This document shows, in pieces, positions 3,239-25,550 of a stretch of DNA of 33,729 bases. Both the position numbers and the translations under genes were made by a program. The stretch comes from Phycisphaerae bacterium (GTDB taxonomy: Bacteria; Planctomycetota; Phycisphaerae; SM23-33). The first letter of the stretch is position 1. The number at the start of each line of letters is the position of its first letter. The stretch covers positions 1 through 33,729 of the forward strand of contig JAIORC010000075.1 in assembly GCA_021108335.1 (NCBI GenBank). Reading direction: 5' to 3'. A model generated the notes under the pieces. That model had not been told where the DNA came from. It searched no databases and was given only the letters and a program-made list of their open reading frames with translations.

Positions 3239-3253
3239 ACAATAGGAGCAAAT

Positions 3254-3994
3254 ATGAGCGAGTTGAACCTGCTGCCGGAATCTTACGTCAAAGAACGCAT
3301 GCGATACCGGATCGACCTGCTTTGCGTTTTGTTGTTCGCGGTGATCATGGGCGGCCTGATTGTCATCGAAAGAACCACTCGTGGCAAACTGGAAACGGCG
3401 AAAAAAGAATATGTCGAAACAAACGCCCGGTATACTAAAGCCGTCAACAAAACCAAAACGTACTTCCAGTTGCAAAGCAAGCGGGACAAACTGTTGAAAC
3501 AGGTTGAAGCCGCCGCAACGGTAACGCAGCGTATCCCCCGCAGTTATCTGCTGGCTATAATCACCAACGCCCGCAGCACCAATATGCTGAACCTTACCAA
3601 GCTGAACATTATCGTCACAATACCCAAATCCAATGCATCGTCGGCATCCTCCGGTAACCAGAAGACTGTACGCGGCAAAAGTTCCACGAAACCACCACCA
3701 AAAACCGAATCGTTATCTCCGGTAATTACCATTGAATTGGAGGGCAATGCCCAAACGTATGATGATGTCAAAGATTTTTTTAAGAATCTCAAACGCTGTG
3801 ATGCAATAGATGAAGAAAACGCAACCTGGCCTGTGACCAGGGAGCCGACTAAAAGCAACCCCCGCTCCGGCTTTGAGATTAAACTCAAAGTCAAAAAAGA
3901 CTTGGACGTATTGAACCTGCTGAAGAGCGACAAACCCACCATACACGCCGCAAACGGCCCTGATGCAACCAACGGGAAAGGGACGCAAAAATGA
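3254..3994 (+). CDS. pilN: PilN-like inner-membrane assembly protein
   Basis: A 246-aa bitopic protein. The N terminus MSELNLLPESYVKER is the typical PilN cytoplasmic motif that docks on PilM. One membrane helix follows at residues 20-38, then a periplasmic coiled-coil segment and a ferredoxin-like fold region. A basic, Ser/Lys/Pro-rich insertion at about residues 128-152 looks like a flexible linker. ATAGGAGCAAAT precedes the ATG. It follows pilM by 15 bases and its end overlaps pilO by four bases, implying translational coupling. Confidence 0.82.
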   Translation: MSELNLLPESYVKERMRYRIDLLCVLLFAVIMGGLIVIERTTRGKLETAKKEYVETNARYTKAVNKTKTYFQLQSKRDKLLKQVEAAATVTQRIPRSYLLAIITNARSTNMLNLTKLNIIVTIPKSNASSASSGNQKTVRGKSSTKPPPKTESLSPVITIELEGNAQTYDDVKDFFKNLKRCDAIDEENATWPVTREPTKSNPRSGFEIKLKVKKDLDVLNLLKSDKPTIHAANGPDATNGKGTQK

Positions 3995-4557
3995 AATTCG
4001 GACTTCGAGAACTGGTTTTTGTCGCCATGCTGCTCGCCGTACCAGTGGGGCTTTACATGTATGTCCTTAAGCCGCGAAAATTGGACAAAGAGAAAATGGT
4101 TGCTGAAACCAGGGACAAAAGCAAACAATTGCAAAAGATGAAACTCGTTCGCTCGCAAGCGGATCAAAAAATCAGGGAAGACATAAAGTTTCTGGAAAAG
4201 GCCCTGGAAACAATCCGCATCAGGCAGCCCGTGGCTGAAGACACTGTTACGACAAGGTCCGCGCTCCGTGAAATAGCCCTGAAAAAAAACCTCACTATAT
4301 CGACGCTCAAACCTCGCCCTATATCCACCAGTGAACCCAAAGAAAAACAATACAACGCTCGAGGTATGACCATAGGGGCATCCGGGACATACCATGATAT
4401 TTATGCATTTCTTCTCGCAGTGGAGAACGACCCGAGGAGAGTTATACGAATAAACCGTGTCACCATAGAATCTGATGCCAGGGACAAAAAAGGTTTAGTC
4501 GGGGCAATCTTCTCCATGGCTGTCCTATCCCCAAAAACTAAGGACCAGAAAAAATGA
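3991..4557 (+). CDS. pilO: PilO-like inner-membrane assembly protein
   Basis: A 188-aa bitopic protein with a membrane helix at residues 8-25 followed by a Lys-rich coiled coil (about 30-75) and a C-terminal ferredoxin-like region. That is the usual PilO plan as heterodimer partner of PilN. The assignment rests mainly on position between pilN and the PilP-like gene and on topology, because PilO sequences diverge strongly. ATGA overlaps occur at both ends, with pilN upstream and the next gene downstream. Confidence 0.75.
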   Translation: MKFGLRELVFVAMLLAVPVGLYMYVLKPRKLDKEKMVAETRDKSKQLQKMKLVRSQADQKIREDIKFLEKALETIRIRQPVAEDTVTTRSALREIALKKNLTISTLKPRPISTSEPKEKQYNARGMTIGASGTYHDIYAFLLAVENDPRRVIRINRVTIESDARDKKGLVGAIFSMAVLSPKTKDQKK

Positions 4558-5204
4558 ACAAGGCACGCAAAGGTTGGCAGGTTTCCGGTACGGGCAATTC
4601 CGCTGCAAAGGCTGGGCAAGAGGTAACTGATGCCGCTCAATCAACTCGTAATATTTTCGGATTGAATCGTATTTCGGTGATGATGGGGTTGATGTTCGCC
4701 GGAGGAATGATCTGGGTATATTTCGCCAGCTTGCAAACCCAACCTGTCGCCAAAAACGAAGAAAATGACTTAAACGTAACAATTGTTACATCTGGACTCT
4801 TTGATATGACAAACGCCTCATTGGTCAAAGACAACCCAAAAACACAGGTTATGATGCAGGCAGTTTATTACAGTGCCAAAGAAAGACAAATCCCCTTGGT
4901 GAAATTGAGGGGGAATCTCTTCAAATTTGTAACCCCAGAGAAACCCAAACCGCCCACAGAGACTACCACTTTAGTAACAACACCTCCCACAGAAGACCCC
5001 GGGCCTCCGCCCAAGGTTCCCCCAACGGATGGTTTGAGCCTGCAGACAATTTTGTGGGAAGAGGGTAAACCACCCACCGCGATTATTGCCAACCATCTCA
5101 TCGGCGTCGGAGATGTCATAAACGACTGGACTGTGCATAAAATCGAGAAAAAACGGGTAATTTTGCGGTGGAAAAATAAAAGATTTGAATTGAAGATGCC
5201 TTGA
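4554..5204 (+). CDS. PilP/GspC-like periplasmic linker protein
   Basis: A 216-aa protein with an N-terminal cytoplasmic tail, a membrane helix at about residues 40-59, a Pro/Thr-rich linker at about 124-160 and a C-terminal beta domain. The C-terminal part (LQTILWEEGKPPTAIIANHL, then GVGDVINDW and VILRWKNKRFEL) reads like the homology-region domain of PilP/GspC and GspB. These domains contact the outer-membrane secretin, so the protein probably bridges PilN/PilO to a secretin encoded elsewhere. PilP is normally a lipoprotein, but no lipobox is seen, so a GspC/GspB-like anchor is more apt. It overlaps pilO by four bases. Confidence 0.65.
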   Translation: MNKARKGWQVSGTGNSAAKAGQEVTDAAQSTRNIFGLNRISVMMGLMFAGGMIWVYFASLQTQPVAKNEENDLNVTIVTSGLFDMTNASLVKDNPKTQVMMQAVYYSAKERQIPLVKLRGNLFKFVTPEKPKPPTETTTLVTTPPTEDPGPPPKVPPTDGLSLQTILWEEGKPPTAIIANHLIGVGDVINDWTVHKIEKKRVILRWKNKRFELKMP

Positions 5205-5231
5205 CGCAAATAGTTTTGCCGGAGATGTATT

Positions 5232-7043
5232 TTGGGACCTGTTGACAATAAGAAACCATCAATCAAGCTTCCCGGCGACCTTTCAGCAGCGCATTCGTCT
5301 GGAGGTTCCGGCAATGATTACCTGTGGCAGCCTTCGCCCGATCAGACAGCCCGTCGTGGGCCTGAAGGTCTGCTGCTTGCCAAGGGAGTCATCACGGCCG
5401 AGCTGTTGGACGAGGCTCGGGCAAAGCAGGCCGACGACCCACGCATCAGCGTGCTGGAGGCGTTGGTCAAAAACGGCGCGATTGACGAAATGCTCGCCCT
5501 TCAGACTACTGCGGAGTATTTCAAGCTGCCGTTTCGCCGAATTACGGAACAGGATGTAAACCCGGACGTGCTGGACATTCTCCCGATGGACTATCTTCGG
5601 GCCAAATCCGTACTTCCGCTCGACAAACACCAGAATTCCGTGGTTATGGCGATTTCCAATCCGGAGGACATTTTCCTCCTGGACGACTTCCGCCGCCGCC
5701 TGAATATGTCGGTAAAACTGGTGGTCAGCCCCCCCGCCGACATTCAAAAAGCCATCGCCGAGCTTTCGGCTGGGCCTTCCGCACAAGTCGATGAAATCCT
5801 CAGCGACTTCGACGTGGACGAAGGCTCCGTGGAGGTGATGGACGAGGAAGCCGAGCAGGTTGAAGACCTGGAAAAGATGGCCGGCGAAAGCCCCGTCATT
5901 CGATACGTCAACTTTCTCATTTCCAGCGCCGTCCACGAAGGAGCCAGCGATATTCACATCGAACCCGGCAAGAAGCGTCTTCGCGTTCGTTTCCGCATGG
6001 ACGGTATTTTGTTCGACCAGTCCGCCCCCTCCGTCCAGATGCAGGCTGCGATTCTCTCGCGTCTGAAGATTATGGCCAAGCTGGACATCGCCGAAACGCG
6101 CCTGCCTCAGGACGGGCGAATCCGCGCGACCGTCCACGGCAGAAATGTCGACCTTCGTGTCAGCACACTGCCGACGGTACATGGCGAAAAATGCGTAATC
6201 CGTATCCTGGACAATCGCTCGATTACTGTGGGCTTGGAGCAATTGGGCATGGCGGTTGACACTCTTGACGAAATACAGAATCAGATTCATCAACCAAATG
6301 GCATCATACTCGTAACCGGCCCGACCGGTAGCGGCAAAAGTACCACGTTGTACTCGGCCTTGCAGATACTGGACAGCAGCAAGCTCAACATCTCCACCGT
6401 CGAAGATCCGGTGGAATACGAACTGGCGTCAATCAATCAGGTACACGTACATGAGAGTATCGGGATGACTTTTTCCATCGCTCTTCGAAGCCTGTTGCGC
6501 CAAGACCCGGATGTCGTTATGATCGGCGAAATACGCGATGCCGAGACTGCCCGTATCGCCGTGCAGGCATCACTGACCGGCCACCTTGTTCTTTCCACGC
6601 TTCACACCAACGACGCTCCCTCCTGCATCACGCGTTTGATTAATATCGGAGTCGAGCCGTACCTGATAAGCGCAGCGCTGAACGCAATTCTCGCCCAGCG
6701 GCTGGTTCGGAAAATCTGCCCGGATTGCAAAATCGAAGTAACCGAAGCCAGCCAGCGCGAAATGGAGCATCTGACCCGATGCGGTGTTTCCGGGATCAAA
6801 CTATATCGTGGAGCAGGATGCGAAAAGTGTCGCCAGACCGGTTACAAAGGGCGGCTTGGTATTTACGAGTTGTTGACTGTAGACGATGAAATGGGCGATC
6901 TTATCTCCCATTGCCCCTCGCTTATGGAACTGCGAAACTATGCCAAAAAAATCGGGATGCGAAATTTGCGAATAGATGGATTCGAAAAAGTTGCCGCCGG
7001 TCTAACCACCGTGGCAGAAATCATGCGCGTAACACAATCTTAA
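5232..7043 (+). CDS. pilB: PilB/GspE-family extension ATPase
   Basis: A 603-aa hexameric motor that powers pilin polymerisation. The N-terminal MshEN-type domain spans about residues 40-170. The catalytic domain has Walker A GPTGSGKS near residues 363-370, an Asp-box/Walker B region (PDVVMIGEIRDAETARIA) near 428 and the LSTLHTND histidine box. A zinc-binding tetracysteine occurs as CPDC (about 497) and CEKC (about 530), typical of GspE/PilB and absent from PilT. The start is TTG at 5232, served by CGGAG eight bases upstream. The nearby ATG at 5225 is out of frame. It sits between the PilP-like gene and pilT. Confidence 0.92.
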   Translation: MGPVDNKKPSIKLPGDLSAAHSSGGSGNDYLWQPSPDQTARRGPEGLLLAKGVITAELLDEARAKQADDPRISVLEALVKNGAIDEMLALQTTAEYFKLPFRRITEQDVNPDVLDILPMDYLRAKSVLPLDKHQNSVVMAISNPEDIFLLDDFRRRLNMSVKLVVSPPADIQKAIAELSAGPSAQVDEILSDFDVDEGSVEVMDEEAEQVEDLEKMAGESPVIRYVNFLISSAVHEGASDIHIEPGKKRLRVRFRMDGILFDQSAPSVQMQAAILSRLKIMAKLDIAETRLPQDGRIRATVHGRNVDLRVSTLPTVHGEKCVIRILDNRSITVGLEQLGMAVDTLDEIQNQIHQPNGIILVTGPTGSGKSTTLYSALQILDSSKLNISTVEDPVEYELASINQVHVHESIGMTFSIALRSLLRQDPDVVMIGEIRDAETARIAVQASLTGHLVLSTLHTNDAPSCITRLINIGVEPYLISAALNAILAQRLVRKICPDCKIEVTEASQREMEHLTRCGVSGIKLYRGAGCEKCRQTGYKGRLGIYELLTVDDEMGDLISHCPSLMELRNYAKKIGMRNLRIDGFEKVAAGLTTVAEIMRVTQS

Positions 7044-7075
7044 CGCGGAAACCAACAATAACAGGAAAAATTATC

Positions 7076-8137
7076 GTGTCGAGCCTGAATGATATACTGA
7101 CGTATGCGGTTAGCAACCAGGCAAGTGATATTTTTATCGTGCCGTATCATTCCCCGATTATCTGCGTTCACAAACAAATGCAGACCGAAACACAGTACGG
7201 CGAAATCCAGCCTTACGATTCGGAAAACATGGTCAAGGAAATGGTCGGGGAAAAGCGTTTCTCGAGACTTGAGCAATATCGGGACCTGGACTTTTCCTAC
7301 CGGATTGAGGGTGTCGGGCGATTCCGTGTCAACGCGCACTACCAACGGGAAACCATTGCAATAGCATTTCGTGTAATCACCCCGGAAGTTCCTGGTCTGG
7401 ACGTATTGAACCTCCCGCCCATCGTTCAGGATTTTGCCAACCTGCCGCGGGGGCTGGTTCTTGTAACGGGTCCCACCGGTTCCGGAAAAAGCACCACCCT
7501 GGCTTCGTTAATCAGCGCCATGAATCAGGCACAGCGCAAGCATGTTATCACGCTGGAAGACCCCGTTGAATATGAACTGCTCAGTAATCAATGCCTTATA
7601 GAGCAGCGTGAAGTCGGTTCCGACGTTCCGGATTTCGCCAGTGGTCTGAAACATGCCCTTCGCCAGGCGCCGGATGTGATTATGGTAGGCGAAATGCGGG
7701 ACTTGGAAACTACATCCGCCGCACTCAGTGCCGGCGAGACCGGACACTTGGTTCTTTCGACATTGCACACGCAAAGCGCCAGCCAGACCATCGAGCGTAT
7801 AGTTGATATTTATCCCGGAGCGCGTCAGAAGTATATTCTGTCCATGTTGGCCAATACTCTTCAAGCCGTCATAACTCAGACGCTCTTCACACGGTCGGAT
7901 ACGCCGGGAATGATTCCCGCCCTGGAAATAATGATCTGTACACCGGCGGTTCGAAACTGCATCCGGGAGAATAGAATTCACGAAATTTCCAACATCATCG
8001 AAACGAACCGCTCCATGGGAATGTGTCTCTTGGACGATGCGATCAAAGTATTGTACCTGAACGGGCGGATCACCGCCTTCCAGGCAATTGAGCGGGCCAA
8101 CAACGCCGTAAAGCTTCGAAAAGAAATTGGAGTCTAG
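7076..8137 (+). CDS. pilT: PilT retraction ATPase
   Basis: A 353-aa retraction motor that depolymerises the pilus (twitching). It has the compact PilT plan: a short N-terminal PAS-like domain, Walker A GPTGSGKSTT near residue 131-140, and the PilT-type Walker B/His region GEMRDLETTSAALSAGETGH. A C-terminal AIRNLIRE-like helix appears here as AVRNCIRE, with a GMCLLDDAI box. There is no tetracysteine. The frame is open further upstream over the end of pilB, but that part is unlike PilT. The GTG at 7076, preceded by AGGAA and starting VSSLNDIL, is the likely start, 32 bases after pilB. Confidence 0.9.
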   Translation: MSSLNDILTYAVSNQASDIFIVPYHSPIICVHKQMQTETQYGEIQPYDSENMVKEMVGEKRFSRLEQYRDLDFSYRIEGVGRFRVNAHYQRETIAIAFRVITPEVPGLDVLNLPPIVQDFANLPRGLVLVTGPTGSGKSTTLASLISAMNQAQRKHVITLEDPVEYELLSNQCLIEQREVGSDVPDFASGLKHALRQAPDVIMVGEMRDLETTSAALSAGETGHLVLSTLHTQSASQTIERIVDIYPGARQKYILSMLANTLQAVITQTLFTRSDTPGMIPALEIMICTPAVRNCIRENRIHEISNIIETNRSMGMCLLDDAIKVLYLNGRITAFQAIERANNAVKLRKEIGV

Positions 8138-8146
8138 GAACAGAAT

Positions 8147-9370
8147 ATGGCAAAGTTCAAATGTGAAATGCAAATGCCGGACGGCCAGGTCAAATACCAT
8201 ACGATAACGGCCCCATCCCTTGCCGAGGCAACTCAAATCGCCCAAAGTCGCGAGGGATACCTGCTCAATATCATCGCGGACGGCTCCCAGCAAAATCTTT
8301 ACCAGCGAATGCAGAATGTTCGCGTGGAGTTTGGCCCGGGGCTCAGAGACCTCATGAGTTTCACCAAGCAGTTGTCTGTTATGATCAAGGCCGGTATCAG
8401 TATCCGAGACGCCATCGCGTCCATCGCCGACGGAACGCCCAATATGCGGTTCCAGGCGACACTCAATGAAGTTTGCCGCGACGTGGAATCAGGCATCCCG
8501 TTTTCCGGAGCACTGGGCAAACACCCAAAAGTATTCAGCTCCTTGTATGTGAACATGATTCGCGCCTCGGAAATCTCCGGTACATTTGCGCACATGCTGG
8601 ACCGGATCGTGGAATACCTCGACCAGCAGGACGAAACCCACCGCATGGTTCGCGGGGCGATGATCTATCCAATAGTTCTCTTTACGATGTCAATCGCCGC
8701 AGTTGTTTTTCTGCTGCAGTGGGTCGTGCCGAAATTCATGAAGCTCTTCAAAGGCAAAGAACACCTCCTACCCAAGCCGACAATTATCCTCCTGGCGATG
8801 AGTAATTTCATGCAAAATTACTGGTATATCCCGCTATCCATCGTGGTAGTTCTGGCCACGGGAATTATCATCACAGTTCGTACTCCCACCGGCCGGCGAG
8901 CGTGGGACCGGATGCTTCTGGCTATACCGATTATCAAAAAAATGATGCGAGCATTGTATATCACCAGAAGCCTCCAATCCTTGGGCGAACTGGTCAACGC
9001 AGGCGTGCCTATTCTCGAAGCTCTTGACATAACTGCTGAAATTTCAGGGAATTGCGTATACAAAGACATGTGGCGCGATGTGCGCGATACTGTTAAAGAA
9101 GGCGGTAAAATCGTCCATGAACTCCAGGCCAGCGACAATCTTCCAAGGAGCGTGGTGCAGATGATTTCCGCCGGCGAAGAATCAGGCCGGCTTGGCGAGG
9201 TACTGGATGAAATATCTAGATACTACAGCAAAGAACTCAAAGAGACCATCAAAACGGTAACCGGCCTGCTCGAACCGCTTATGATTGTGTTCATGGGCGT
9301 GGTTGTGGGTTTTATCGCGATGAGTATACTTTTACCAATTTTTTCCATGCAAAAACTCATGGGCAAATAG
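8147..9370 (+). CDS. pilC: PilC/GspF inner-membrane platform protein
   Basis: A 407-aa polytopic membrane protein that forms the pilus assembly platform turned by PilB and PilT. It shows the family's two repeated cytoplasmic T2SSF domains (about residues 65-190 and 270-390, the first with FTKQLSVMIKAGISIRDAI and the second with RSLQSLGELVNAGVPILEAL). Membrane helices lie near residues 170-190, 220-243 and 375-400, and length is typical. AGGAA precedes the ATG by seven bases and only nine bases separate it from pilT. Its last codons lie in a sequence block repeated about 127 bases downstream. Confidence 0.92.
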   Translation: MAKFKCEMQMPDGQVKYHTITAPSLAEATQIAQSREGYLLNIIADGSQQNLYQRMQNVRVEFGPGLRDLMSFTKQLSVMIKAGISIRDAIASIADGTPNMRFQATLNEVCRDVESGIPFSGALGKHPKVFSSLYVNMIRASEISGTFAHMLDRIVEYLDQQDETHRMVRGAMIYPIVLFTMSIAAVVFLLQWVVPKFMKLFKGKEHLLPKPTIILLAMSNFMQNYWYIPLSIVVVLATGIIITVRTPTGRRAWDRMLLAIPIIKKMMRALYITRSLQSLGELVNAGVPILEALDITAEISGNCVYKDMWRDVRDTVKEGGKIVHELQASDNLPRSVVQMISAGEESGRLGEVLDEISRYYSKELKETIKTVTGLLEPLMIVFMGVVVGFIAMSILLPIFSMQKLMGK

Positions 9371-12085: not shown

Positions 12086-12592
12086 ATGACTAAAAAACAT
12101 TTCTCCCGCGCGTTTACGCTCGTGGAAGTTATCATCGCCATAACTATCACGGGAATCATACTGGCTGCGCTGGCTACCGCCCTGAGCGGGTCATTAACCG
12201 TCTATGACGGAAATAACCAGATCGCGGCGATCAACCAGGCCGCCAGGGTCATCATGGATCGAATGGGGCGGGAAATGCGCATGGCTGACAATGTGGACTG
12301 CTCCGCCAATCTGTTGAAAATATATCCGGACGGCCCCACAGACCCGTACCTTCAATACTCCCTGAATACGGACACCGGCGTGTTCTCATACATACAGGAC
12401 GGCACATCCCACGAACTGCTGGGCAGCGAAGACGACGTCTCCGTACAGTCTTTCACAATAGACCTGACGCAGGTTCTCGAAGAGAGCACGCTGTATACAA
12501 CTCTCGCCAGGATCAAGTTGGTACTGCTCATTGACGGCCAGAGCTACAGCTTCACCACCTCGGCGGTGCCTCGAAAGAATATGGACAAATAA
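12086..12592 (+). CDS. Minor prepilin, PilW/GspJ-like
   Basis: A 168-aa prepilin-like protein. The leader ends at Ala before FTLVEVIIAITITGIILAAL, with Glu at mature position 5. A QAARVIMDRMGREMRMADNV segment downstream is typical of GspJ/PilW. The C-terminal part is beta-rich. It follows the PilX-like gene by 29 bases with CGGAAG upstream and is the last gene before a strong terminator, completing the GspI-GspK-GspJ-like trio that caps pilus-like fibres. Confidence 0.75.
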   Translation: MTKKHFSRAFTLVEVIIAITITGIILAALATALSGSLTVYDGNNQIAAINQAARVIMDRMGREMRMADNVDCSANLLKIYPDGPTDPYLQYSLNTDTGVFSYIQDGTSHELLGSEDDVSVQSFTIDLTQVLEESTLYTTLARIKLVLLIDGQSYSFTTSAVPRKNMDK

Positions 12593-12688: not shown

Positions 12689-12785
12689 ATCCGCAAAATA
12701 AAAACACTCCGGGCTACCTGTCAGCGGTATTCGTCTGTAAAATCTCCTTAACCATGCGGCCTTGCGAAAAAGGAAGATTACAACC

Positions 12786-13265
12786 ATGACAAACGCGACA
12801 AACGAACAATTCATGCTACGGGCAATCGAAGTTACCCGGACCGGTATCGCCGACGGGCAGACCCCCTTCGGGGCCGTCATCGTCAAAAACGAGCGAATAA
12901 TCGCCGAGGCCCACAACAACGTATGGAACCAGACCGACCCCACCGCACACGCGGAGGTATGCGCGATTCGCCAGGCATGCCGCAAGCTCGACACCATCGA
13001 CCTGGGCGACTGCGTGATCTACTCGACCACCGAACCGTGCCCGATGTGCTTCGCCGCAATCCACTGGGCGAAAATTTCCCGAATCGTTTTCGGAGCCACA
13101 ATCGTCGACGCACATGCCGCGGGTTTCAACGAACTGCACATCTCGAACGAACAGATGAAATCCATCGGCCGCAGCAAAGTTGACGTCGTGGGCAACTTCA
13201 TGCGCCAGCCATGCGTAGAGCTGTTCACGGAATGGCTGGACTCCGGCAAAAGTAAAGTGTATTAG
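12786..13265 (+). CDS. GuaD-type guanine/nucleoside deaminase
   Basis: A 159-aa zinc-dependent deaminase of the cytidine deaminase superfamily. The zinc and catalytic motifs are H55-A56-E57 and P84-C85-P86-M87-C88. The spacing, PFGAVIVK near residue 27, NDP-like TDPTAHAEV and the DAHAAGFNEL segment resemble bacterial guanine deaminase (guanine to xanthine) more than tRNA deaminase TadA. An upstream ATG at 12762 is possible, but AAGGAAG suits the ATG at 12786. The neighbouring gene carries nucleotide- and deoxynucleoside-type domains on the same strand, suggesting a small purine salvage locus, which is inference. Confidence 0.8.
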   Translation: MTNATNEQFMLRAIEVTRTGIADGQTPFGAVIVKNERIIAEAHNNVWNQTDPTAHAEVCAIRQACRKLDTIDLGDCVIYSTTEPCPMCFAAIHWAKISRIVFGATIVDAHAAGFNELHISNEQMKSIGRSKVDVVGNFMRQPCVELFTEWLDSGKSKVY

Positions 13266-13427: not shown

Positions 13428-14537
13428 ATGAAAGTAGTAGTTACCGGACAAGTAGGCCTGGACAAAAAAGAGTTTCTCGACCGTGTCGCTGAAATCGCCG
13501 CGGAGCAGGGCCATCGCCTCAAAACATTTCACGTGGGCGATATGATGTACCGCGAAGCCCCCGACGTCGCCCGGGGCAAAATACTCGACCTGCCGCTGAG
13601 CCGACTGGAAAATCTCCGCCGCAGCGTCTTCAAGGACATCCTCGCAGCCTCCAAAACCGAATCGAATATCCTGGTTAACACCCACGCCACTTTCCGCTGG
13701 CACCACGGGCTGTTCTTCGCCTTCGACCACGACCAGATGATCCAGCTCGACGCCGACCTGTATATCGTGCTGGTCGACAGCATCGACCAGGTTTACCGCC
13801 GGCTGAAAAGAGACGCCCAAGCCGACCACAGTCTCAAGGATCTCATGGTCTGGCGAGAGGAGGAAATTCTCGCCACCGAGCTGCTCAGCCGGATCGTCCG
13901 CGGCCACGGATGCTTCTACATCTGCGTTCGCGGCGACGACATCCTGGCCGAGACGATGAGCCGGCTGATGTTCCGCCCGGAAATGAAAAAAGCCTACCTC
14001 AGCTTCCCCATGTCACACGTGATGGACATGCCCGACGTGCTGCGGGAAATCGAGGAATTCCGCCGCGAGATGAAGCGGCATTTCATATGCTTCGACCCCG
14101 CTGACATGGAAACGGAAAAACCGCTCAGCTTCGCCGCCATCGATGCCGCACGCCAAGGCCATCGCACGGTAGACATCGGCGAACAGGACCGGCGGGTAAC
14201 CATGGACGTCCAGGAAGTGTTGGGCATTATTCCCGACATCGACGGACAGATTTACGTGCGGGACTTCAAGTTGATCGACCAGGCCGACATGATCGTCTCG
14301 ATCATACCGGCACTGCGCGACGGCAAGCCGGCGATATCCAGCGGCGTGGAACGCGAACTGCAACACGCCCACGAAAGCACACGCGACGTCTTCGTGGTAT
14401 GGAAGCCGGCCTGCGAACCGTCGCCGTTCATCACCGAAACCTGCACAAAAATCTTCCGCACCACCGACGAAGCCATCAAGTATTTCCTGAAAAACGGCTA
14501 CGCCGACCAGGAACCCCACGGGACGTTGTTCCAGTAA
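13428..14537 (+). CDS. Archaeal-Adk-like domain fused to a nucleoside deoxyribosyltransferase-like domain
   Basis: A 369-aa two-domain protein. Residues 1 to about 180 read like archaeal-type adenylate kinase: VVVTG at the N terminus, FHVGDMMY, ILVNTHATF and DADLYIVLVDSIDQVYRRL. The P-loop is degenerate, GQVGLDKKE in place of GxPGxGK[ST], so kinase activity is doubtful. Residues about 187-350 (KKAYLSFPMSHV, LIDQADMIVSII, SSGVERELQHA) resemble the nucleoside 2-deoxyribosyltransferase fold, with a D-x-A-D motif and a candidate Glu in SGVERE. AGGA precedes the ATG. It lies downstream of the guanine deaminase. The substrate is unknown. Confidence 0.55.
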   Translation: MKVVVTGQVGLDKKEFLDRVAEIAAEQGHRLKTFHVGDMMYREAPDVARGKILDLPLSRLENLRRSVFKDILAASKTESNILVNTHATFRWHHGLFFAFDHDQMIQLDADLYIVLVDSIDQVYRRLKRDAQADHSLKDLMVWREEEILATELLSRIVRGHGCFYICVRGDDILAETMSRLMFRPEMKKAYLSFPMSHVMDMPDVLREIEEFRREMKRHFICFDPADMETEKPLSFAAIDAARQGHRTVDIGEQDRRVTMDVQEVLGIIPDIDGQIYVRDFKLIDQADMIVSIIPALRDGKPAISSGVERELQHAHESTRDVFVVWKPACEPSPFITETCTKIFRTTDEAIKYFLKNGYADQEPHGTLFQ

Positions 14538-18485: not shown

Positions 18486-19484
18486 TTAGCTTGGCGGGGA
18501 GTCCAGGTCGAATTCGACCCGGCAACTTCCGCTGATTTGAATGGTTTCGCTGCCGGTGTCTCCCCGGCGGATGAGGAAATTCTGATTGCTGCCGTCGACC
18601 ATATTCTGCAAGGCGGACTGCACCGCCGAGCCGCTCAACGTGCCGGGTTGGCCGGCGGTGAGGCTCAGCGAGCCGATCAACGTACTATCGCCTGCGCCCA
18701 GCCCACCGGACCAATTGCCGCCGGCGGAGGGGTCGTACTGATTCCATGTCGGCGGGTCGGTGTCGAAATCGATGTGTCGCAGGCAGTGGTAGACGTACAC
18801 GGTACAGGCGGCGTCGGCGGTGATTTTAATGTTGCTGCTGTTGCGGACGGTTACGTTCGTCAGGCCCTTGACGGGGCTGGCACCTTCCATGCGGAGGATG
18901 GCATAGCCGGCGCTGCGAAGCTCGCCATATTCGCTGTGGGCGATGCATTGGCTCAGCCAGGTCGTGTCCGGCAAAATCGAGAACAGCCCGGCGGAAAAGT
19001 AAATCGGCAAATCCCATCGGCCTCGCCGAATCGCCTCCGTAGCAGCGCGAAGCTCATTACAGTGCACCGCCCGAACGGCGGTCTGCCCGCTGGTAAACGA
19101 CGGGTCGGTCCAATTGCCGCTGGGCGTGATCTTCGCCAGCAGGCTCACTTCTCCCTGACCGGGCGAACCGGAGACGATGATTTTATTCTCGTCGCCCCCC
19201 GCTTCCGGCCATAGCCATTTCATGCCCGACGGTGTCGGCGGGCTGCCGCCCAAGCTGCCGGTAGCCGGACTCAGCAGGCTAAGCAATTCGCTGCGGAATG
19301 TGTTAATCGGCGCCGGCGAAACCCACGTGGGAATCGTAACGGCCAGGTCGTTCTGATACACCAGCCGTCTGCGCCGGGTGATTGCGGCAGTCAGTTCCGT
19401 CATGTCGATCTGCCGGGCGAAATGCGAGCCGGCTTCGACTCGGCCGGAACCGTTCTGGTATGTCCATGCGGGGCTGTAGCTCAT
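18486..19484 (-). CDS. Phage tail/baseplate-associated protein, unknown family
   Basis: A 332-aa soluble, beta-rich protein. No enzymatic motif is recognised. The N-terminal part has a helix with ITRRRRLVYQ. The rest alternates Gly/Ser/Thr-rich strands, as in virion surface proteins. It lies downstream of the other tail genes, about where distal tail or fibre proteins are encoded, and begins only four bases after the preceding gene's stop. Confidence 0.5.
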   Translation of the reverse strand: MSYSPAWTYQNGSGRVEAGSHFARQIDMTELTAAITRRRRLVYQNDLAVTIPTWVSPAPINTFRSELLSLLSPATGSLGGSPPTPSGMKWLWPEAGGDENKIIVSGSPGQGEVSLLAKITPSGNWTDPSFTSGQTAVRAVHCNELRAATEAIRRGRWDLPIYFSAGLFSILPDTTWLSQCIAHSEYGELRSAGYAILRMEGASPVKGLTNVTVRNSSNIKITADAACTVYVYHCLRHIDFDTDPPTWNQYDPSAGGNWSGGLGAGDSTLIGSLSLTAGQPGTLSGSAVQSALQNMVDGSNQNFLIRRGDTGSETIQISGSCRVEFDLDSPPS

Positions 19485-19488
19485 GATG

Positions 19489-20046
19489 TCAGCTCAGGTA
19501 CTTGGCGTATGTGGGATGATCGAACACGTACATCAACGTCGGCGGAGTTCCGGCGGAGGTTAGCGTGGTAACCAGCACGATGGTGTCGTTGTCCACCGCC
19601 GCGCCCGGCCCAAGCGACAATTCCGCGAGATTCTGGGCGGTGATGTTCGTCGTGTCGTCGGCGTCGCTGAATACGCCGGCTGCGCTTATTTTCTGCTCGC
19701 GAACCGAGTAGACCGCCCCACCGGAGGAGCTGGCAATCTTGGCGGGGAACATCGCCGACCCAGCCTGCCGGACACAGATAATCCAGCAACCATCGACGTC
19801 CACGGCGACCGCGTCGGTGTCGGCGTCGAGTTGGCCGGCCTGGTCGGCAGGCTCGGCGAGGTTCGTTACGACCAGCGTAACGTCAGTGTCAACCTGCACG
19901 TCGCCGTCCGCGTCGAACTCCAGCGGATTGGCGGTATAACGGTTGTACTCGTCAAGCTCGACGAGCCTGACCAGCCGCACTCCGCAAGCGGGGCCAGCCT
20001 GGACGAAGCGACCCAGCGCGTCGACGGGACGGGAATTCACGTACAT
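19489..20046 (-). CDS. Phage structural protein, unknown family
   Basis: A 185-aa acidic protein beginning MYVNSRPVDALGRFVQAGPA. It contains an Asp-rich run (about residues 40-85) and a beta-rich C-terminal half. An upstream in-frame start at 20151 would overlap the previous gene by about 100 bases. The ATG at 20046, preceded by GAAAGGC, begins two bases after that gene's stop and is preferred. Probably a small tail component by position. Confidence 0.5.
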   Translation of the reverse strand: MYVNSRPVDALGRFVQAGPACGVRLVRLVELDEYNRYTANPLEFDADGDVQVDTDVTLVVTNLAEPADQAGQLDADTDAVAVDVDGCWIICVRQAGSAMFPAKIASSSGGAVYSVREQKISAAGVFSDADDTTNITAQNLAELSLGPGAAVDNDTIVLVTTLTSAGTPPTLMYVFDHPTYAKYLS

Positions 20047-20048
20047 AA

Positions 20049-21746
20049 TCAGCCTTTCAGAATGAGTTGGGTTTGCCGGGCCGGGCCGAAATCGTGCCGG
20101 ACGGAATGGACATACGGGCGGCTTTGCGGATTGGAAAACAGTTCCAGCCATCGCCCGTCAACGCGGCTGACGATGTCGCCGGCGTGGAAGGACGTGTCGA
20201 TCCAGCCCAGCCGGAGTGTCGCGTCGGTGGCTCGGGCGTAGAATTCCGCATTACGGCGGGCATGGATTCTCAGCCTAGCCGAATCGTCGCGAACTACGGA
20301 TACGCCTCCACTGCCGCCGGCAAAGATGCTGGAGGAATGAATCGCCCACCACCCCGCCTGGGCCGAGAGGTCGTGCAGGCTGGTCGGCAGGCTGACGTCT
20401 CCGCCGAGCCTCGCTTCGATACGCCGATCGGATTCGACCGAAGCCGTGATGCGAACTTCCACCCCGCCGGAAACCGCCGCCGCGAAAAACTCGCCCGGCA
20501 AAGCGCCACCACCCAGACGAATCGAACATTCCTCGTCGGAGACCCACACCGACCCGGCCCACCGCTGCCACGAATCGCTATCGGAAAGGCGAAATTCCAC
20601 GACAATGCCGCGGCTGCGACTTTCCGAATTCGTCGAGACGCACGGCAGAAAACGCCTGGCCCGGCGGGCGATAAAGTCCTCGTCGCTCAATGCGGAAAAA
20701 TCATACTCCTGCCCGTCGTACCGGTCATTTTCGTTCAGCACCCACTTGCGGAATACGTCGCGATGTGCATTCCAGTCGTCCGAATCGTCGTGGAGAAAAT
20801 CCCGCCAGCGGCCTGTCTCTTCGCTGGAATCCCAGCCGGGTTGAAGGCTGAACGTCGCTTCGTACTGCCTGGGCGCTCCCAGCACGCGAATAGGTCGGCG
20901 CGATGGCCTGGTGCCCAGCAGGATGCACCCACCGGCAAGATTCGTTTTCGACAGATCCAGCGTTTCGCCGGCTTTCTGGAGCCGCACGCGGCTACGCCGG
21001 CCCTGCCTGCCGGGGTTATACACCACCACACCCAGGCCGGTTCGCGTCGAGCGGATTTCCAGCCCACCGCGATGGGCAATGTCGATCAGCGCCTCACCAA
21101 GCGTCCTGCCGGTGGCGTTATATCGGCCGAGGTCCACATCGCCGCAGAGATATCTCAACTCCGACAAGCCCGGCGACTTGATGCCGGCAGGCAGATGGGC
21201 CGCCAGCAAATACGCCAACCCGTCGGCAACCGTCCACCGCCGCGTATCTCCGCAGGCCGCGAAAACAACCGACCTGCCGGAGGGAAGACTGTGCGACGAA
21301 CCGCCGGCAAGTGTGTCCGGGCTGGTATTGAATTCCAGCGGCATATTTCCCAGCAACACCGGAGAACCGTCGCTGTCATGCCATCGGCCAAGCAAAGCCC
21401 GGTTCAGCCCGGTAGTCAGCCGATGCTCGACCATCGCGACAAGACGCTCGCCATCATCGCCTACCTCGACTTCATGCTGGACGACAACGCCGTGGAACTC
21501 GCCAAGGCCGAATCCGACCGGCGACTTCACAAGCACCCTCGCCCCAACCCGCGGCAGACGAAATAGCTGCTGAATGTAACCGCTTGCCGCTTCCAGACAA
21601 ACCTCGCCGAAGGCCGGGGCGTTGCAGACTTCCCACGTGGTTACACGCAGGTCGCGTCGCCGTCGGCCGTCTATGTATACCCGCGCAGGCCCGGGATGCA
21701 GAATTGTATTTTGCCGACTGTGCGGCTGGAGTGTTACGGTTTGCAT
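20049..21746 (-). CDS. Baseplate/tail-hub-like phage protein
   Basis: A 565-aa, Arg- and Gly-rich, mostly beta protein. The early segment (LPRVGARVLVKSPVGFG, EFHGVVVQHEVEV, ERLVAMVEHRL) reads like the interlocking beta domain of tail-hub proteins. A TLGEALIDIAHRGGLEIR segment resembles gpD/gp27-type hub proteins. The remainder is unique. These matches are impressionistic. GAGGAATC precedes the ATG. A long antisense reading frame (20067-21566) over this gene is an artefact of codon bias. Confidence 0.45.
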   Translation of the reverse strand: MQTVTLQPHSRQNTILHPGPARVYIDGRRRRDLRVTTWEVCNAPAFGEVCLEAASGYIQQLFRLPRVGARVLVKSPVGFGLGEFHGVVVQHEVEVGDDGERLVAMVEHRLTTGLNRALLGRWHDSDGSPVLLGNMPLEFNTSPDTLAGGSSHSLPSGRSVVFAACGDTRRWTVADGLAYLLAAHLPAGIKSPGLSELRYLCGDVDLGRYNATGRTLGEALIDIAHRGGLEIRSTRTGLGVVVYNPGRQGRRSRVRLQKAGETLDLSKTNLAGGCILLGTRPSRRPIRVLGAPRQYEATFSLQPGWDSSEETGRWRDFLHDDSDDWNAHRDVFRKWVLNENDRYDGQEYDFSALSDEDFIARRARRFLPCVSTNSESRSRGIVVEFRLSDSDSWQRWAGSVWVSDEECSIRLGGGALPGEFFAAAVSGGVEVRITASVESDRRIEARLGGDVSLPTSLHDLSAQAGWWAIHSSSIFAGGSGGVSVVRDDSARLRIHARRNAEFYARATDATLRLGWIDTSFHAGDIVSRVDGRWLELFSNPQSRPYVHSVRHDFGPARQTQLILKG

Positions 21747-21756
21747 GGCTGATTCC

Positions 21757-23868
21757 TCATAGCGTTACGGGCGGCAGCGGCGGGGCAGCGGCAGGGACAA
21801 TGAGCGTTTTGCTGAGCGGGCCGGCCTGGGCATCACGAGTCGCACGAACCGCCAGTTGGATCGGAAGTGTGGAAAAACTCACGACGGCGGAGTGTTCCAG
21901 GTGGTCGACGGCCGTTATCGAAACGACGGCTACGGGATTTTCCATGTCCAGCGTTCCGCTGCCGGAATCGCTGAAGACTTCAAAGCCGGTCGGCTGGGCA
22001 TAACCCGGCGGAATCTCCCAACAGAACCCCAGTTTCAACGAATCTTCCGCCGTCAGTTCCGCGGTCAGTTCCACGGGAACCGGAAGCGGCGACGGCTGCA
22101 ACTCGTCCGCCTCGTCGATGTCGGCCAGGCACATAACGTGAGTGTTATGCTCCTCCACACCGGCGGCGGAGACGGCTGTGATTTTGTACCAGTAGGCAGT
22201 GTCGCCCGGCTGAGAGATGTCCACTTCGGTAACACCGCTACGAGGTGCAGCCACCAGCGTCATGTCGTCCTGGGTGAGTCCGCGATAGATGTTATAGCCC
22301 GCCTGCCGGAACGTTACGCCGAACAGGCCGGCCCCGGCGGTTACGAGGTAGCCGTCTATTTTATTGGCGGCGACCATCATTGCCTCGGCGAATGTTCCGT
22401 CGGATCGCAGCATCTCAAAAAACGCCTCCACGTCCAGCGTCTCGACGGTATCGGCAAATCCCATCGCGGCGGCGTAATCGGCTGCCAAAGCGTCGTATGC
22501 CTCGCTCGTAGCCCGGAGTGTGTCGGCGGAATTGGCGGTGTCGTCTACGAAGGCAACCCGGCTTCCAGCGGGTGAACCGAAGGCCGATAACGACGTAGCA
22601 TCGCCGAAGGTGAATGCGTCATTCGTCAATTGCGCCGGGATTGCCGCTGTCTCGATGCGCAATTTTTGCGCCGCGAGGCTTGCCGCCCAGGCGGTTTCGT
22701 CGGTGTAAAGTTTGTCGGTAGCGGTTACGGTAATATCGGCGTCTGAATTGTCCAGTATCGTCTTGGCAGCTGCGAGATTCTGCGCGTCGATCCGTGTGCA
22801 GAGGTATTTTCCGGCCAGTGCGGTCTTTGTCAATCGATCGGTCGTCTGGTATAGAGGATTGTCAATCGCGCCGGTGAATGCAGTACCGTAGTTCATCAAT
22901 CGCGCGGTGGCCGAGTGGCGGTTGCCGGAGTGCATAAAATATCCCGGTACGCCGTAGCCGATTAAAAAATGCGTACAGTTGGCCGCGACGGTCGGGTTGC
23001 GGCCAAGCCATGCGGCGAGATCTGTCTCGACCTCGGCCTGGAATGTCGCGTAATCAGCGAGGACCTCATTCGCCGATGCGTTTGGCAACGGGCAGAGATT
23101 CGACAGCGGCACGCCGAGTTGGCTGTGGCAATAGTACGCAAATTCCTGGCTGTCGGCGGAGGCCTGGCGATACAAAACCACCGTCCGGGCCGGACATGGT
23201 GTTAAAATTTCCGGCGTAGCGACGTAAGGCTCCGGGTAGTTGTCGGCGATTTTGACCTCATCAAAATCATAAGCGTTATCTACGTTGTCGGATATACAGC
23301 CAAACAATACGGAACTTAAGGTGGTGGCCAGGCGATCGTAATTATCGATACCGGTTAAACTCGAAACCGCGACGCCATTAAAATACAAAACAGCCTCGCC
23401 GTCGCAGGCTATATTTGTCGTGGCTCTCTTATACGCTATTACCACATATATCAACACATTGATATTTATCGCAGATGTTTCGGTTAACCAGGCATACCCG
23501 GAATCAGCATTTATTTGCAGCTTCATTTTCCCGGCATAACTCAAATAAAGTCGGGCGTATGTCGTGCCGGAAGCGCTCAAGTGAAAAACTCTGGCGCGAT
23601 AAGGATAGGTTGATGATTGGCGAAATACTATCGGCCTGAAATAAAACCCCGTCTGTATCCAATCTCCGGGAGTAATCGTATGGGACAGACTGCGAGTAAC
23701 GTAAGCGGCATCTGTGCCGACAGAAGTACATTGTAGAATCTTATTGCCCCGGGCTGTCGGCGAGCCGTCCCCACGAATCGCAGTGCTGGCTCCGGCCTCG
23801 ACGGGAGTCAGATTTTCGGCCGCGAACTCCGGCTCAAAGTCTATATGGGCTATAGTTTCACTACTCAT
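21757..23868 (-). CDS. LamG-like / TIGR03790-like / fibronectin-III-like phage-operon protein
   Basis: A 703-aa multidomain protein. Residues about 1-215 form a concanavalin/LamG-like jelly roll (HIDFEPEF, VIAYKRA, AVLYFNGVAV). Residues about 228-480 resemble the uncharacterised TIGR03790 family, with VVLYRQASADSQEFAYYCHS and a VPLSN motif comparable to its N-terminal signature. Fibronectin-III-like modules follow (about 515-590 with YNIYRGLTQDD and WYKITAVSAAGVEE; another at about 605-690). It is probably a virion surface or host-binding protein. The ATG overlaps the upstream stop (ATGA), and its GGAG ribosome site lies just after a dispersed repeat. Confidence 0.5.
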   Translation of the reverse strand: MSSETIAHIDFEPEFAAENLTPVEAGASTAIRGDGSPTARGNKILQCTSVGTDAAYVTRSLSHTITPGDWIQTGFYFRPIVFRQSSTYPYRARVFHLSASGTTYARLYLSYAGKMKLQINADSGYAWLTETSAININVLIYVVIAYKRATTNIACDGEAVLYFNGVAVSSLTGIDNYDRLATTLSSVLFGCISDNVDNAYDFDEVKIADNYPEPYVATPEILTPCPARTVVLYRQASADSQEFAYYCHSQLGVPLSNLCPLPNASANEVLADYATFQAEVETDLAAWLGRNPTVAANCTHFLIGYGVPGYFMHSGNRHSATARLMNYGTAFTGAIDNPLYQTTDRLTKTALAGKYLCTRIDAQNLAAAKTILDNSDADITVTATDKLYTDETAWAASLAAQKLRIETAAIPAQLTNDAFTFGDATSLSAFGSPAGSRVAFVDDTANSADTLRATSEAYDALAADYAAAMGFADTVETLDVEAFFEMLRSDGTFAEAMMVAANKIDGYLVTAGAGLFGVTFRQAGYNIYRGLTQDDMTLVAAPRSGVTEVDISQPGDTAYWYKITAVSAAGVEEHNTHVMCLADIDEADELQPSPLPVPVELTAELTAEDSLKLGFCWEIPPGYAQPTGFEVFSDSGSGTLDMENPVAVVSITAVDHLEHSAVVSFSTLPIQLAVRATRDAQAGPLSKTLIVPAAAPPLPPVTL

Positions 23869-24293
23869 TTATGGGTCTCCGGGGGCAGACTTGAGGCGGC
23901 TGGCTGTAGGCCGGAGGGTTGGCTGTTCGGCAGATTTCCCTCAAACCTATCGTCTCCGGTCTCCAGCATGTTGTTCAGCAAATCGGCGACGGTGGCCTTC
24001 ATCGTGGCCTCCGGGGTTTCCCCAGCAGCGGGCAGGATGCGATACTCCACGCTTGCCCCCAGGCCTGCCCCAAGGGGGGGGCCGTCAATCTCGGCGAGAT
24101 ACCAGCCGTCGCGGTCTTTTGTGCGGTCGGTACGCGTAGGCATAAGTCGGGCGGTAATCGCCAGTGTCTCGGACGGCTTACCGGCCACGGCGGGAACACC
24201 GGGCTTTGCGGCCACAGCCTCCACGGCGGGCCACACGGCGTCCCCAAGGGACAAGTCAAACTTGATTTGTTGCGGTTGTGGTTTTTTAGTCAT
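23865..24293 (-). CDS. Phage-operon protein built partly from dispersed repeats
   Basis: A 142-aa protein of unknown function. Residues about 40-110 look like a small beta domain (ETLAITARLMPTRTDR, GWYLAEIDG, SVEYRILPAAGETPEATM). The ATG falls within a TAATGTCTAATGACTAA repeat and has no Shine-Dalgarno. The GPPLGAGLGAS segment is encoded by a 23-base sequence found exactly at 32331-32353. The last roughly 30 residues are encoded by a copy of the GGCTGTAGGC repeat. The original gene was probably shorter or differently bounded. Confidence 0.5.
   Translation of the reverse strand: MTKKPQPQQIKFDLSLGDAVWPAVEAVAAKPGVPAVAGKPSETLAITARLMPTRTDRTKDRDGWYLAEIDGPPLGAGLGASVEYRILPAAGETPEATMKATVADLLNNMLETGDDRFEGNLPNSQPSGLQPAASSLPPETHK
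23890..23967. repeat. GGCTGTAGGC-GGAGGGTTGGC dispersed repeat, copy 2 (intragenic)
   Basis: GGCTGTAGGCCGGAGGGTTG followed by GCTGTTCGGCAGATTTCC and CTCC-rich sequence, aligned to 16611-16672 with few differences. It lies in the 3' end of the 142-aa gene. Confidence 0.7.
24057..24079. repeat. Intragenic 23-base repeat shared with the purB upstream region
   Basis: The reverse complement of this segment is identical over 23 bases to 32331-32353 (C6-TTGGGGCAGGCCTG-GGG). A shorter version, GGGGCAGGCCTG, occurs at 16681-16692. Confidence 0.8.
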
Positions 24294-24316
24294 TAGACAT
24301 TAGGCCTTAGACATTG
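24286..24316. repeat. TAGNCATTAG-type repeat, copy 3
   Basis: TAGTCATTAGACATTAGGCC followed by TTAGACATTG. It overlaps the start codon of the 142-aa gene on the minus strand and fills the gap to the tail-fibre-like gene. Confidence 0.75.
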
Positions 24317-24320
24317 TTGT

Positions 24321-25550
24321 TTACGGGTTCCCGGTAATCGCGACGCTGCCGGAATAGACTATCCCGTCAATTGTAGCCATGACGTAGACGGTCTTATTTG
24401 TGGCCGTATCGATATTCATGTTTGCGTAACCACTACTGTTTGTGATTACTTCGTAGTCCGCATCTGCTTCAACCTCTCGCATTTGTTCGCCAGTGAGTAC
24501 AGAAAAAACAGTCTGTGGATCTGGTTCGGATTTATCGGCATCGGCAATCCAAACACGCATGAATATTTCTTTTGCGAGATTGTTCCCGGCAACATCCTTG
24601 ACTTGAATCGCCATTGTACCAGTGCCGTCCGCATCATCAGTGCCAGTCAATACAATCGTCGGAATCAAGTCTTGTAGAGCGGCGGCAAGCTTCGCGACGG
24701 TAACGGAACTATCGGTCGGCGTTCGCTCATTTGTGTTCCGCGAGTCGGTATTTGTAACATACGGATTCCCGACTGACGGTGTGCCGGATGTACCTTCCAA
24801 GGCATCTTTCTCTGTGGCAGACGGTAAATCAGTGTGGTCATAGGTTGACTCGTGCGTAGTCATGGTGCCGGCGTCTTCGTAGTCGCTGTCTTTGTGGCCG
24901 GAATCGGCCAAGTTGCCGTTGGCGTCCAGGGCCGCAAAATTACCGGCCGTCGGGGCAGCTACTTTATCAGCCTTGGTCGGATGCAAATGCAATGCGTCGG
25001 CGTCCGAGCCGTCAGAAAGGGTTTCAGCTTCGGTGCCGGTGATGTTAGTGGCCTGGAAAAAGGCAGCGGCCTCGGCCATGTCGGCAGCGGTGAGTCCGCT
25101 GCAGACGGTCAGCATTGTCCGGCCTCGATAGTCGGTTATGTCGTCGTGATCGTAAACGCCTGCGGCGGTTACGATAGTCGCCAGGGGCAGGTGCGGCGTA
25201 GCCGAGGCCGTGGGAAATCCGGTAGTGTTTACCGTCAATACGCCGGCGGCGGTGAGGTAGATGTAATTCGTGGCGTTATTCGTAAGCGACTGTTCGGAAA
25301 CTCCGGCGTAGTTGACGGCGGTGTCGCCGTTGAGGTATCGCCCGGCCCGGACGCCGAAGGTAAGGTCGCCGTCTTTGAAGACGCGCAGGTCGCCGGCCCG
25401 GCGGGCGACGTCCAGCAGGCGGTAGAGCATTTTGTAGAACGACGTGTAATACGGCGACTCATAGATCGTCGGGAAAGCAACCTCTTGCTCGAAGTCGGAA
25501 GTGCCGGAAAGTGCATTCAATTCGCTGTCGGTAAGATAGGATTCAGTCAT
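24321..25550 (-). CDS. Tail-fibre-like phage protein
   Basis: A 409-aa protein. The N-terminal segment (SYLTDSELNALSGTSDFEQE, then TIYESPYYTSFYKMLYRLLD) is followed by a beta-rich region with fibre-type motifs (LTFGVRAGRYLNGDTAVNYA, YIYLTAAGVLTV, HLPLATIVTAAGV). The central HTDLPSATEKDALEG and ALHLHPTKAD segments resemble collar/fibre shaft repeats. The C-terminal roughly 100 residues form a beta-sandwich-like domain (IVLTGTDDADGTGTMAIQVK, VYVMATIDGIVYSGSVAITG) that may be Ig-like. GGAGATAACC precedes the ATG. Host recognition is inferred. Confidence 0.6.
   Translation of the reverse strand: MTESYLTDSELNALSGTSDFEQEVAFPTIYESPYYTSFYKMLYRLLDVARRAGDLRVFKDGDLTFGVRAGRYLNGDTAVNYAGVSEQSLTNNATNYIYLTAAGVLTVNTTGFPTASATPHLPLATIVTAAGVYDHDDITDYRGRTMLTVCSGLTAADMAEAAAFFQATNITGTEAETLSDGSDADALHLHPTKADKVAAPTAGNFAALDANGNLADSGHKDSDYEDAGTMTTHESTYDHTDLPSATEKDALEGTSGTPSVGNPYVTNTDSRNTNERTPTDSSVTVAKLAAALQDLIPTIVLTGTDDADGTGTMAIQVKDVAGNNLAKEIFMRVWIADADKSEPDPQTVFSVLTGEQMREVEADADYEVITNSSGYANMNIDTATNKTVYVMATIDGIVYSGSVAITGNP

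Follow-up and report, generated by a model that had tools for sequence, protein, structure and literature searches.

The gene at positions 13428-14537 (+) of the window, i.e., the whole 33,729-nucleotide stretch of DNA that was analysed, encodes one protein in which an archaeal adenylate-kinase fold is joined to a nucleoside deoxyribosyltransferase (NDT) fold, as confirmed in predicted structural models. The kinase-like half carries an altered P-loop in every orthologue examined, and the other half keeps an invariant set of glycosidase-type active-site residues. With slightly better than even confidence, we propose that the protein is an enzyme that would remove or exchange the base of 2'-deoxynucleoside 5'-monophosphates (dNMPs), the N-terminal domain serving as its non-kinase nucleotide-binding partner. 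Both folds are known; judged from sequence and relative to the open-licence literature searched, what appears to be new is their pairing in one protein, as a kinase-fold/NDT-fold combination with an altered P-loop and a kept glycosidase site was not found in that literature.

Results

Two folds in one open reading frame

The open reading frame opens with ATG and was judged to be real; its start agrees with those of its orthologues, with Met at residue 1 in 42 of the 43 rows that reach this residue (49 rows aligned). No second copy of the fusion gene was found in its own genome (~91% complete). Its overall layout is as follows.

13428-14537 (+): whole gene, 369 amino acids, comprising a kinase-like N domain, an NDT-like C domain and a flexible tail
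13428-13979 (+): N domain, residues 1-184, predicted archaeal adenylate-kinase fold, from AAA_17 matches and structural similarity to 3h86 (Z 19.5)
13980-14504 (+): C domain, residues 185-359, predicted NDT/DNPH1 fold, from structure comparison
14490-14534 (+): tail, residues 355-369, ending HGTLFQ, at which other orthologues in the alignment have Q..LF, QLDLL or QLSLP

An AlphaFold2 model of the whole protein, built from 37 aligned sequences (pLDDT 89.3, pTM 0.88), displays both folds that a sequence-only reading of this DNA had claimed and had proposed to check by structure prediction, i.e., an adenylate-kinase-like first domain followed by a deoxyribosyltransferase-like second one. In this model, residues 1-182 superpose on the Methanococcus maripaludis adenylate kinase 3h86 (Z 19.5, rmsd 2.2, 179 residues aligned) and residues 184-361 on the NDT 7o62 (Z 13.8, rmsd 2.0, 128 aligned). 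Modelled alone (pLDDT 90.0), the C domain has its best fold match in 7o62 (Z 16.6, rmsd 1.9, 132 aligned) and also matches other NDTs, DNPH1 (8rpt, Z 14.7) and MilB (4jem, Z 12.8). The top Foldseek matches of the C domain were 7o62, DNPH1 and NDTs; lower down, at about E 1e-3, came ThsB2 of the Thoeris system and chains of Sir2, so that by fold the substrate may also be of NAD type.

Profile searches of each half, a further check proposed with that reading, came out above the curated Pfam cut-off for the N half and below it for the C half. Pfam AAA_17 matches the N-terminal half (E 4.3e-9) and is found in 37 of 37 aligned family members (E up to 0.1), while solved archaeal adenylate kinases match the same half by profile at E 1.5e-10; the NCBIfam adenylate kinase model PRK04040 scores 35.1 bits, far under its cut-off of 155. 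On the window protein PF05014 reaches 11.7 bits against a cut-off of 28.8 in one search and is absent from the matches listed in two others; across the family, 17 of 33 C domains show a match at E up to 1 (best E 0.023), the cut-off not being reached. Searching the PDB with the sequence of the C domain returned chance-level matches only, so a fold search was needed for this half; a fragment of an NMP-type relative likewise gave only chance-level PDB matches by sequence.

Conservation was assessed over 118 distinct orthologues, these being the best-scoring rows (52-79% identity over 117 aligned rows), to which 24 weaker-scoring ones were added (48-56% identity, and 64% for one split piece), some of them cut at contig ends or holding an internal stop. 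An in-frame TGA lies inside the match in L176 and L198, two genomes of group f115. Two full-length copies per genome occur in G586 (C9, C28) and G658 (C6, C11), the usual number being one match. The window's own genome also holds, on C69, a protein (L131) with a C-terminal NDT/TIR-like domain (PF05014 E 7e-4, below cut-off) and a different N-terminal part.

An adenylate-kinase fold with an altered P-loop

Three stretches of the N domain are of particular bearing.

13446-13472 (+): degenerate P-loop GQVGLDKKE, residues 7-15, aligned to GVPGVGKTT of 6ln3
13677-13715 (+): NTHATFRWxHGLF, residues 84-96, where archaeal adenylate kinases have their DTH...GY region, from alignment and conservation
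13833-13865 (+): LKDxMVWREEE, residues 136-146, lid region, from conservation (family form KDxxVWREEE)

As the sequence-only reading had it, GQVGLDKKE stands in place of the Walker A motif: in the alignment to 6ln3 the Gly and Thr of GxGKT are replaced, and the archaeal-type P-loop GxPGxGxTT, as seen in three aligned adenylate kinase chains, is absent from the window protein. Conservation of this loop, which that reading had wanted checked, extends through all orthologues examined, with no homologue found to carry an intact P-loop: GxxxxGK[ST] occurs in 0 of the 118 distinct orthologues and in 0 of the 20 weaker-scoring ones spanning the loop (20 of the 24 fetched reach it), all 20 of which read G.[VI]G.[DN]K[KRT]. 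Among the 117 rows with a residue at these places, G7 and G10 are invariant (117/117 each), position 12, i.e., the second P-loop Gly, is Asp in 108, Glu in 7, Asn in 1 and Ala in 1, and position 13 is Lys in 112 and Arg in 5. Position 14, the Thr/Ser place, is Lys in 93 of the 117, with Thr in 2 and Ser in 1, none of these having the full GxxxxGK[ST]; one of the 20 weaker-scoring orthologues also has Thr there, again outside a full motif.

Since the canonical P-loop is absent from every orthologue examined, kinase activity is improbable, and the N domain has most likely lost phosphate transfer from ATP. The altered loop need not mean a dead kinase: 6pjw and 1ki9, methanogen proteins that bear the name adenylate kinase, are themselves without the P-loop Lys (GVPGVGGTT), and a few rows of the family carry Thr or Ser at position 14.

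Elsewhere in the domain, N84, H86, F89, R90, W91, H93, G94 and L95 are each present in 118/118 orthologues, as are K137, D138, W142, R143, E144, E145 and E146. Such conservation is consistent with the N domain being a non-kinase nucleotide-binding domain.

A canonical ADK gene is found elsewhere in the same genome (180.5 bits), which rules out the fusion as a replacement of adenylate kinase.

Predicted active-site residues of the C domain

The C domain carries the following residues of interest.

13995-13997 (+): Y190, corresponding to the catalytic Tyr24 of DNPH1, 118/118
14097-14099 (+): P224, at the place of the NDT-type reference proline, 118/118
14262-14264 (+): D279, corresponding to the catalytic Asp80 of DNPH1, 118/118, also from hhalign
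14337-14369 (+): SSGVERELQHA, residues 304-314, with S304 at the 5'-phosphate position and E310 at the nucleophile position, from conservation and alignments
14421-14423 (+): S332, equivalent of DNPH1 Ser128, a partner-subunit residue, and Asn in NDTs, 118/118

S304, G306, E308, E310 and S332 are each found in 118/118 orthologues, and the weaker orthologues keep Y190, D279, S304, G306, E310 and S332 wherever the fetched piece spans them, with a single Asp aligned at 304 among weaker rows cut near that position. By hhalign against a mixed NDT-superfamily set (probability 95.1), D279, S304, G306, E310 and S332 fall on the matching residues of the first member. Equivalences between DNPH1 or DmtZ and the fusion family were mapped through relatives and published descriptions.

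These residues can be placed among known enzymes by aligning 40 rows of the family jointly with 11 references in four MAFFT modes. Tyr occupies position 190 in 11 of 11 references in all four modes, and Pro occupies position 224 in 11 of 11 in three modes and in 9 of 11 in the fourth; at position 279, 8 references have Asp and 3 have Cys, the Cys being in three of the six NDT-type references. In those six, which include 7o62 and 8qc0, position 304 is Asp and position 332 is Asn, the latter giving way to Tyr for two of them under one of the modes. Four NMP-type references (L157-L160) instead have Ser at both places, as does the fusion family, along with Pro at the 224 place; these four count as about one case, because identity to the first of the four is 85-87%. 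In the eleventh reference, position 332 is Asn and position 310 is Gly, with Ser aligned at 304 in three modes.

Ser98 of DNPH1 and Ser128 of its partner subunit are described as holding the 5'-phosphate, with Glu104 as nucleophile and Asp80 as acid (PMC10603095, PMC10483697), and MilB is described as having Ser97 and Glu103 with the same spacing of six as in DNPH1 (PMC4081090). The S304-to-E310 spacing is also six. Because S304 and S332 replace the Asp/Asn of NDTs with the DNPH1/MilB spacing, the expected substrate is a nucleoside 5'-monophosphate. A deoxy sugar would be favoured by Y190, since MilB has Phe here in association with ribose, and its F17Y variant reverts preference toward deoxyribose (PMC10603095). 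From these residues, the C domain should act on deoxynucleoside 5'-monophosphates.

According to the DmtZ report, transferases conserve a proline of the P224 kind and hydrolases lack it; DmtZ itself is described there as being without the 5'-OH Asp/Asn, as keeping the transferase Pro, and as both hydrolysing dAMP and transferring deoxyribose 5-phosphate to a base (PMC12884076). The proline is present in 118/118 fusion orthologues, so the proline-free state expected of a dNMP N-hydrolase was not found. P224 would thus argue against plain hydrolysis and favour exchange.

As a separate observation, the four NMP-type references come from genomes of another planctomycete group (f54) than that of the fusion gene; in each, the gene for the small Ser/Ser protein lies less than 1 kb from an ordinary NDT-type gene (L157/L139, L158/L142, L159/L141 and L160/L155).

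Discussion

Proposed mechanism

In our proposal, the C domain would bind a 2'-deoxynucleoside 5'-monophosphate whose 5'-phosphate would be held by S304 and S332, the latter probably contributed by the other subunit of a dimer. E310 would attack the sugar C1' and D279 would help the base leave, such that deoxyribose 5-phosphate would remain bound to E310. Water would then accept this bound sugar, which would be DNPH1-like hydrolysis, or a second base would, which would be DmtZ-like exchange; P224 would tip the balance toward exchange. The N domain, which retains its own invariant pocket-like region, would probably bind a nucleotide and thereby select the substrate or regulate the C domain.

This dNMP reading draws on the two folds, on the invariant Y190, D279, S304, G306, E310 and S332, on the Ser/Ser pattern, and on the parallels with DNPH1, MilB and DmtZ. 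It is weakened by the top fold match being a true NDT, as 7o62 (Z 16.6) ranks above DNPH1 (14.7) and MilB (12.8). Were it to hold, it would add a cellular dNMP base-hydrolase/base-exchange enzyme, DmtZ being a phage enzyme, and confirmation would provide an example of a nucleoside-monophosphate kinase turned pseudoenzyme. Such a protein may help to control the supply of DNA building blocks; as the gene is common across one bacterial class, cells likely rely on its role.

The C-terminal tail and possible tethering to the sliding clamp

The tail raises the possibility of a clamp-tethered nucleotide or DNA-end enzyme, i.e., that the tail would bind the sliding clamp and so take the glycosidase half to sites of replication or repair. 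The clamp-binding motif, as given in a review, is Q-aliphatic-x-[LM]-[FL], with some examples placed in C-terminal tails (PMC11139829). Among orthologue tails (after residue 354), Q..L. is found in 46/118 and either LF or Q..L. in 104/118. A pattern chosen after viewing the tails, Q[LMTKPRV].L[FLPSD] (e.g., QLDLL, QLSLP, QTNLF and QKPLF), is found in 37/118; over 300 shuffles of the tails the mean count was 0.76 and the highest 4. DNA_pol3_alpha (PF07733) frames of the class carry QMNLF, QGGLF, QGSLF, QLGLF, QLTMF or QMTMF, followed by Gly, in 8 of 13 cases, one in each of 8 class genomes, and a relaxed clamp motif therefore seems to be in use in the class.

On the other side, the strict motif is present in 10/118 tails (with Ala and Pro counted as aliphatic), some orthologues are without the tail, related rows are not independent, and 5 of the 13 polymerase frames are without the motif. 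Among the 18 rows of the window's own family, none has the Gln and all have LF, the window protein having LF only; residues 361-369 of its tail have a mean pLDDT of 57. We consider tethering doubtful, and treat the clamp-like tail as a lead for the family, with no claim for the window protein. More ambitious is the notion of a replisome-tethered editor, in which a dead adenylate kinase would present non-standard dNMPs (or 5'-phosphate DNA ends) to a base-swapping or base-removing NDT-type site kept at the fork by the clamp tail. This strikes us as a long shot; if true, it would constitute a class-wide DNA-precursor quality system of Phycisphaerae, and clamp binding by the tail would in itself link nucleotide cleaning to replication.

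A tail end of the form RGRxG (e.g., RERGRFG) was also seen in 28/118 orthologues, such as L066, L071 and L087, where in the examples it follows the clamp-like motif.

An unlikely alternative: an ordinary nucleoside deoxyribosyltransferase

It is quite unlikely, in our estimation, that the protein is an ordinary NDT that would exchange the bases of free deoxynucleosides for salvage, with the N domain a structural leftover. Such an enzyme would account for the NDT as top fold match and for the kept Tyr, Asp, Glu and transferase-type proline, but not for the 5'-pocket Asp and Asn both being Ser in 118/118 orthologues, the pattern of enzymes acting on 5'-phosphates. The deoxyribosyltransferase likeness perceived by the sequence-only reading hence survives in the fold and in the Tyr/Asp/Glu set, but not in the nucleoside signature, for which a 5'-monophosphate Ser/Ser pair is substituted. 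Of the roles which that reading had suggested, a non-kinase nucleotide-binding domain fits the conservation, whereas free-nucleoside salvage becomes the less likely one because of this Ser/Ser signature.

Apparent inheritance with the class

The fusion gene was found in 346 of 397 genomes of one planctomycete class, inferred from record titles to be Phycisphaerae, and in 258 of the 283 good ones (at least 90% complete and at most 5% contaminated). Across a phylum sample, 40 of 392 genomes had a match, split as 38/41 for the same class versus 2/351 for other genomes if the 332 rows outside the listing are taken to be of other classes; one of the two out-of-class matches (G156) is a 79-residue C-terminal match only. 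Ordinary PF05014 proteins occur in 21 of 149 phylum genomes, all outside this class. A contig scan gave at least 437 relatives; of the 80 best, 79 had planctomycete titles, with Phycisphaerae or Phycisphaerales named in many, and 1 was titled Alphaproteobacteria. The last (L071) carries the gene at 58% identity and is probably a mislabelled or misbinned planctomycete.

Among the 20 listed of the 51 non-matching class genomes, good ones without the gene include three of f6 (G127, G311 and G331), with two other f6 genomes carrying it, as well as rows of f103, f109, f110 and f116; the gene is therefore not indispensable everywhere. A 48-row gene tree agrees with the families, needing 9 changes for 10 groups, which is the minimum, against a shuffled mean of 28.6, strong support being found for 7 of its 45 inner branches. 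The fusion gene has thus apparently been inherited with the class.

Relatives were found neither in viral contigs nor in plasmids or phages, the PHROGs search gave one chance-level match, and a mobile or viral origin was set aside; 0 families of the PADLOC defence models matched at E up to 1. Wide presence, clustering by family and this lack of viral, plasmid, phage and PADLOC matches together point to a housekeeping gene rather than a defence or mobile one. A nucleotide-sensing regulator or defence-like effector, in which the N domain would sense a nucleotide and switch on a dNMP- or NAD-degrading C domain, would parallel the anti-phage dCTP deaminases, in which kinase-like domains are fused to nucleotide-destroying enzymes, and would suit the Foldseek matches of ThsB2 and Sir2 chains near E 1e-3, but is highly unlikely given wide family-wise inheritance in place of the patchy pattern expected of defence genes, and the same absence of PADLOC, plasmid, phage and viral-contig matches.

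Genomic neighbourhood

One upstream gene had been singled out in the sequence-only reading as a guanine deaminase.

12762-13265 (+): guanosine/guanine-deaminase-like neighbour, from sequence; not a conserved partner

The assignment holds in that this protein is closest by sequence to guanosine/guanine deaminases, with NF041025, of the anti-phage dCTP deaminases, as a weak match, but the implied partnership does not: by blastp with ORFs of at least 90 aa, a deaminase lies directly upstream in only 1 of 80 named loci, namely that of the nearest relative, L050 (60% identity), 74 of the 80 holding at least 1 kb of upstream sequence and 6 less than 1 kb. The neighbour therefore says little on function, and a guanine-deaminase partnership as a general link is ruled out. 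Downstream of the fusion gene, L116 has a 62-residue deaminase match of 34%.

Across the class, no conserved operon was found among the 80 named loci. Of the clusters common to at least 8 loci, four consist of ORFs that overlap the fusion gene in antisense or in another frame, and one is antisense over a neighbour; the real shared clusters lie upstream in a single sub-lineage (8-11 of the 80 loci) and, by reading of their sequences, are MqnA/D-like, FHA/SpoIIE-like and CAP-like. With no operon conserved, context does not indicate a pathway.

The window also holds type IV pilus/type II secretion genes at 2174-9370 (PilM, a PilN-like gene below the Pfam cut-off, and T2SSF) and a prepilin-like gene at 12086-12592, identified by sequence reading. 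An SU10-type major capsid protein is encoded at 28557-29714 (-) (E 9.8e-84), with four long minus-strand ORFs without Pfam match to its left (18486-26546), and a prophage may make up the right part of the window.

Comparison with known systems

The N domain resembles archaeal adenylate kinase AdkA (PRK04040) in its predicted fold over residues 1-182 (Z 19.5), but differs in that the P-loop Gly and Thr are replaced, in having its own NTHATFRWxHGLF, and in scoring 35 bits against a cut-off of 155. The C domain shares with nucleoside 2'-deoxyribosyltransferases (PF05014; 7o62, 8qc0) the fold, the nucleophile Glu, the Tyr and the Pro, but has Ser/Ser for the Asp/Asn of the 5'-OH pocket and does not reach the Pfam cut-off. 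With DNPH1/Rcl, a 2'-deoxynucleoside 5'-monophosphate N-hydrolase, it has in common the fold (Z 14.7), the Tyr/Asp/Glu set and the two phosphate-position serines; the fusion differs in its invariant transferase-type Pro 224, and to our knowledge DNPH1 is without a kinase-like domain.

DmtZ, the dAMP hydrolase/deoxyribose-5-phosphate transferase of Z-genome phages, is likened to the fusion by description: it too is reported to have the transferase Pro but no 5'-OH Asp/Asn and, in some phages, to be joined to a second nucleotide enzyme, but it is a phage gene whose fusion partner is dUTPase-like rather than adenylate-kinase-like (PMC12884076). The HGPRT/adenylate kinase fusion of Zobellia galactanivorans likewise joins an adenylate-kinase domain to a base-handling enzyme, but has another partner enzyme and is described as bifunctional (PMC7326950).
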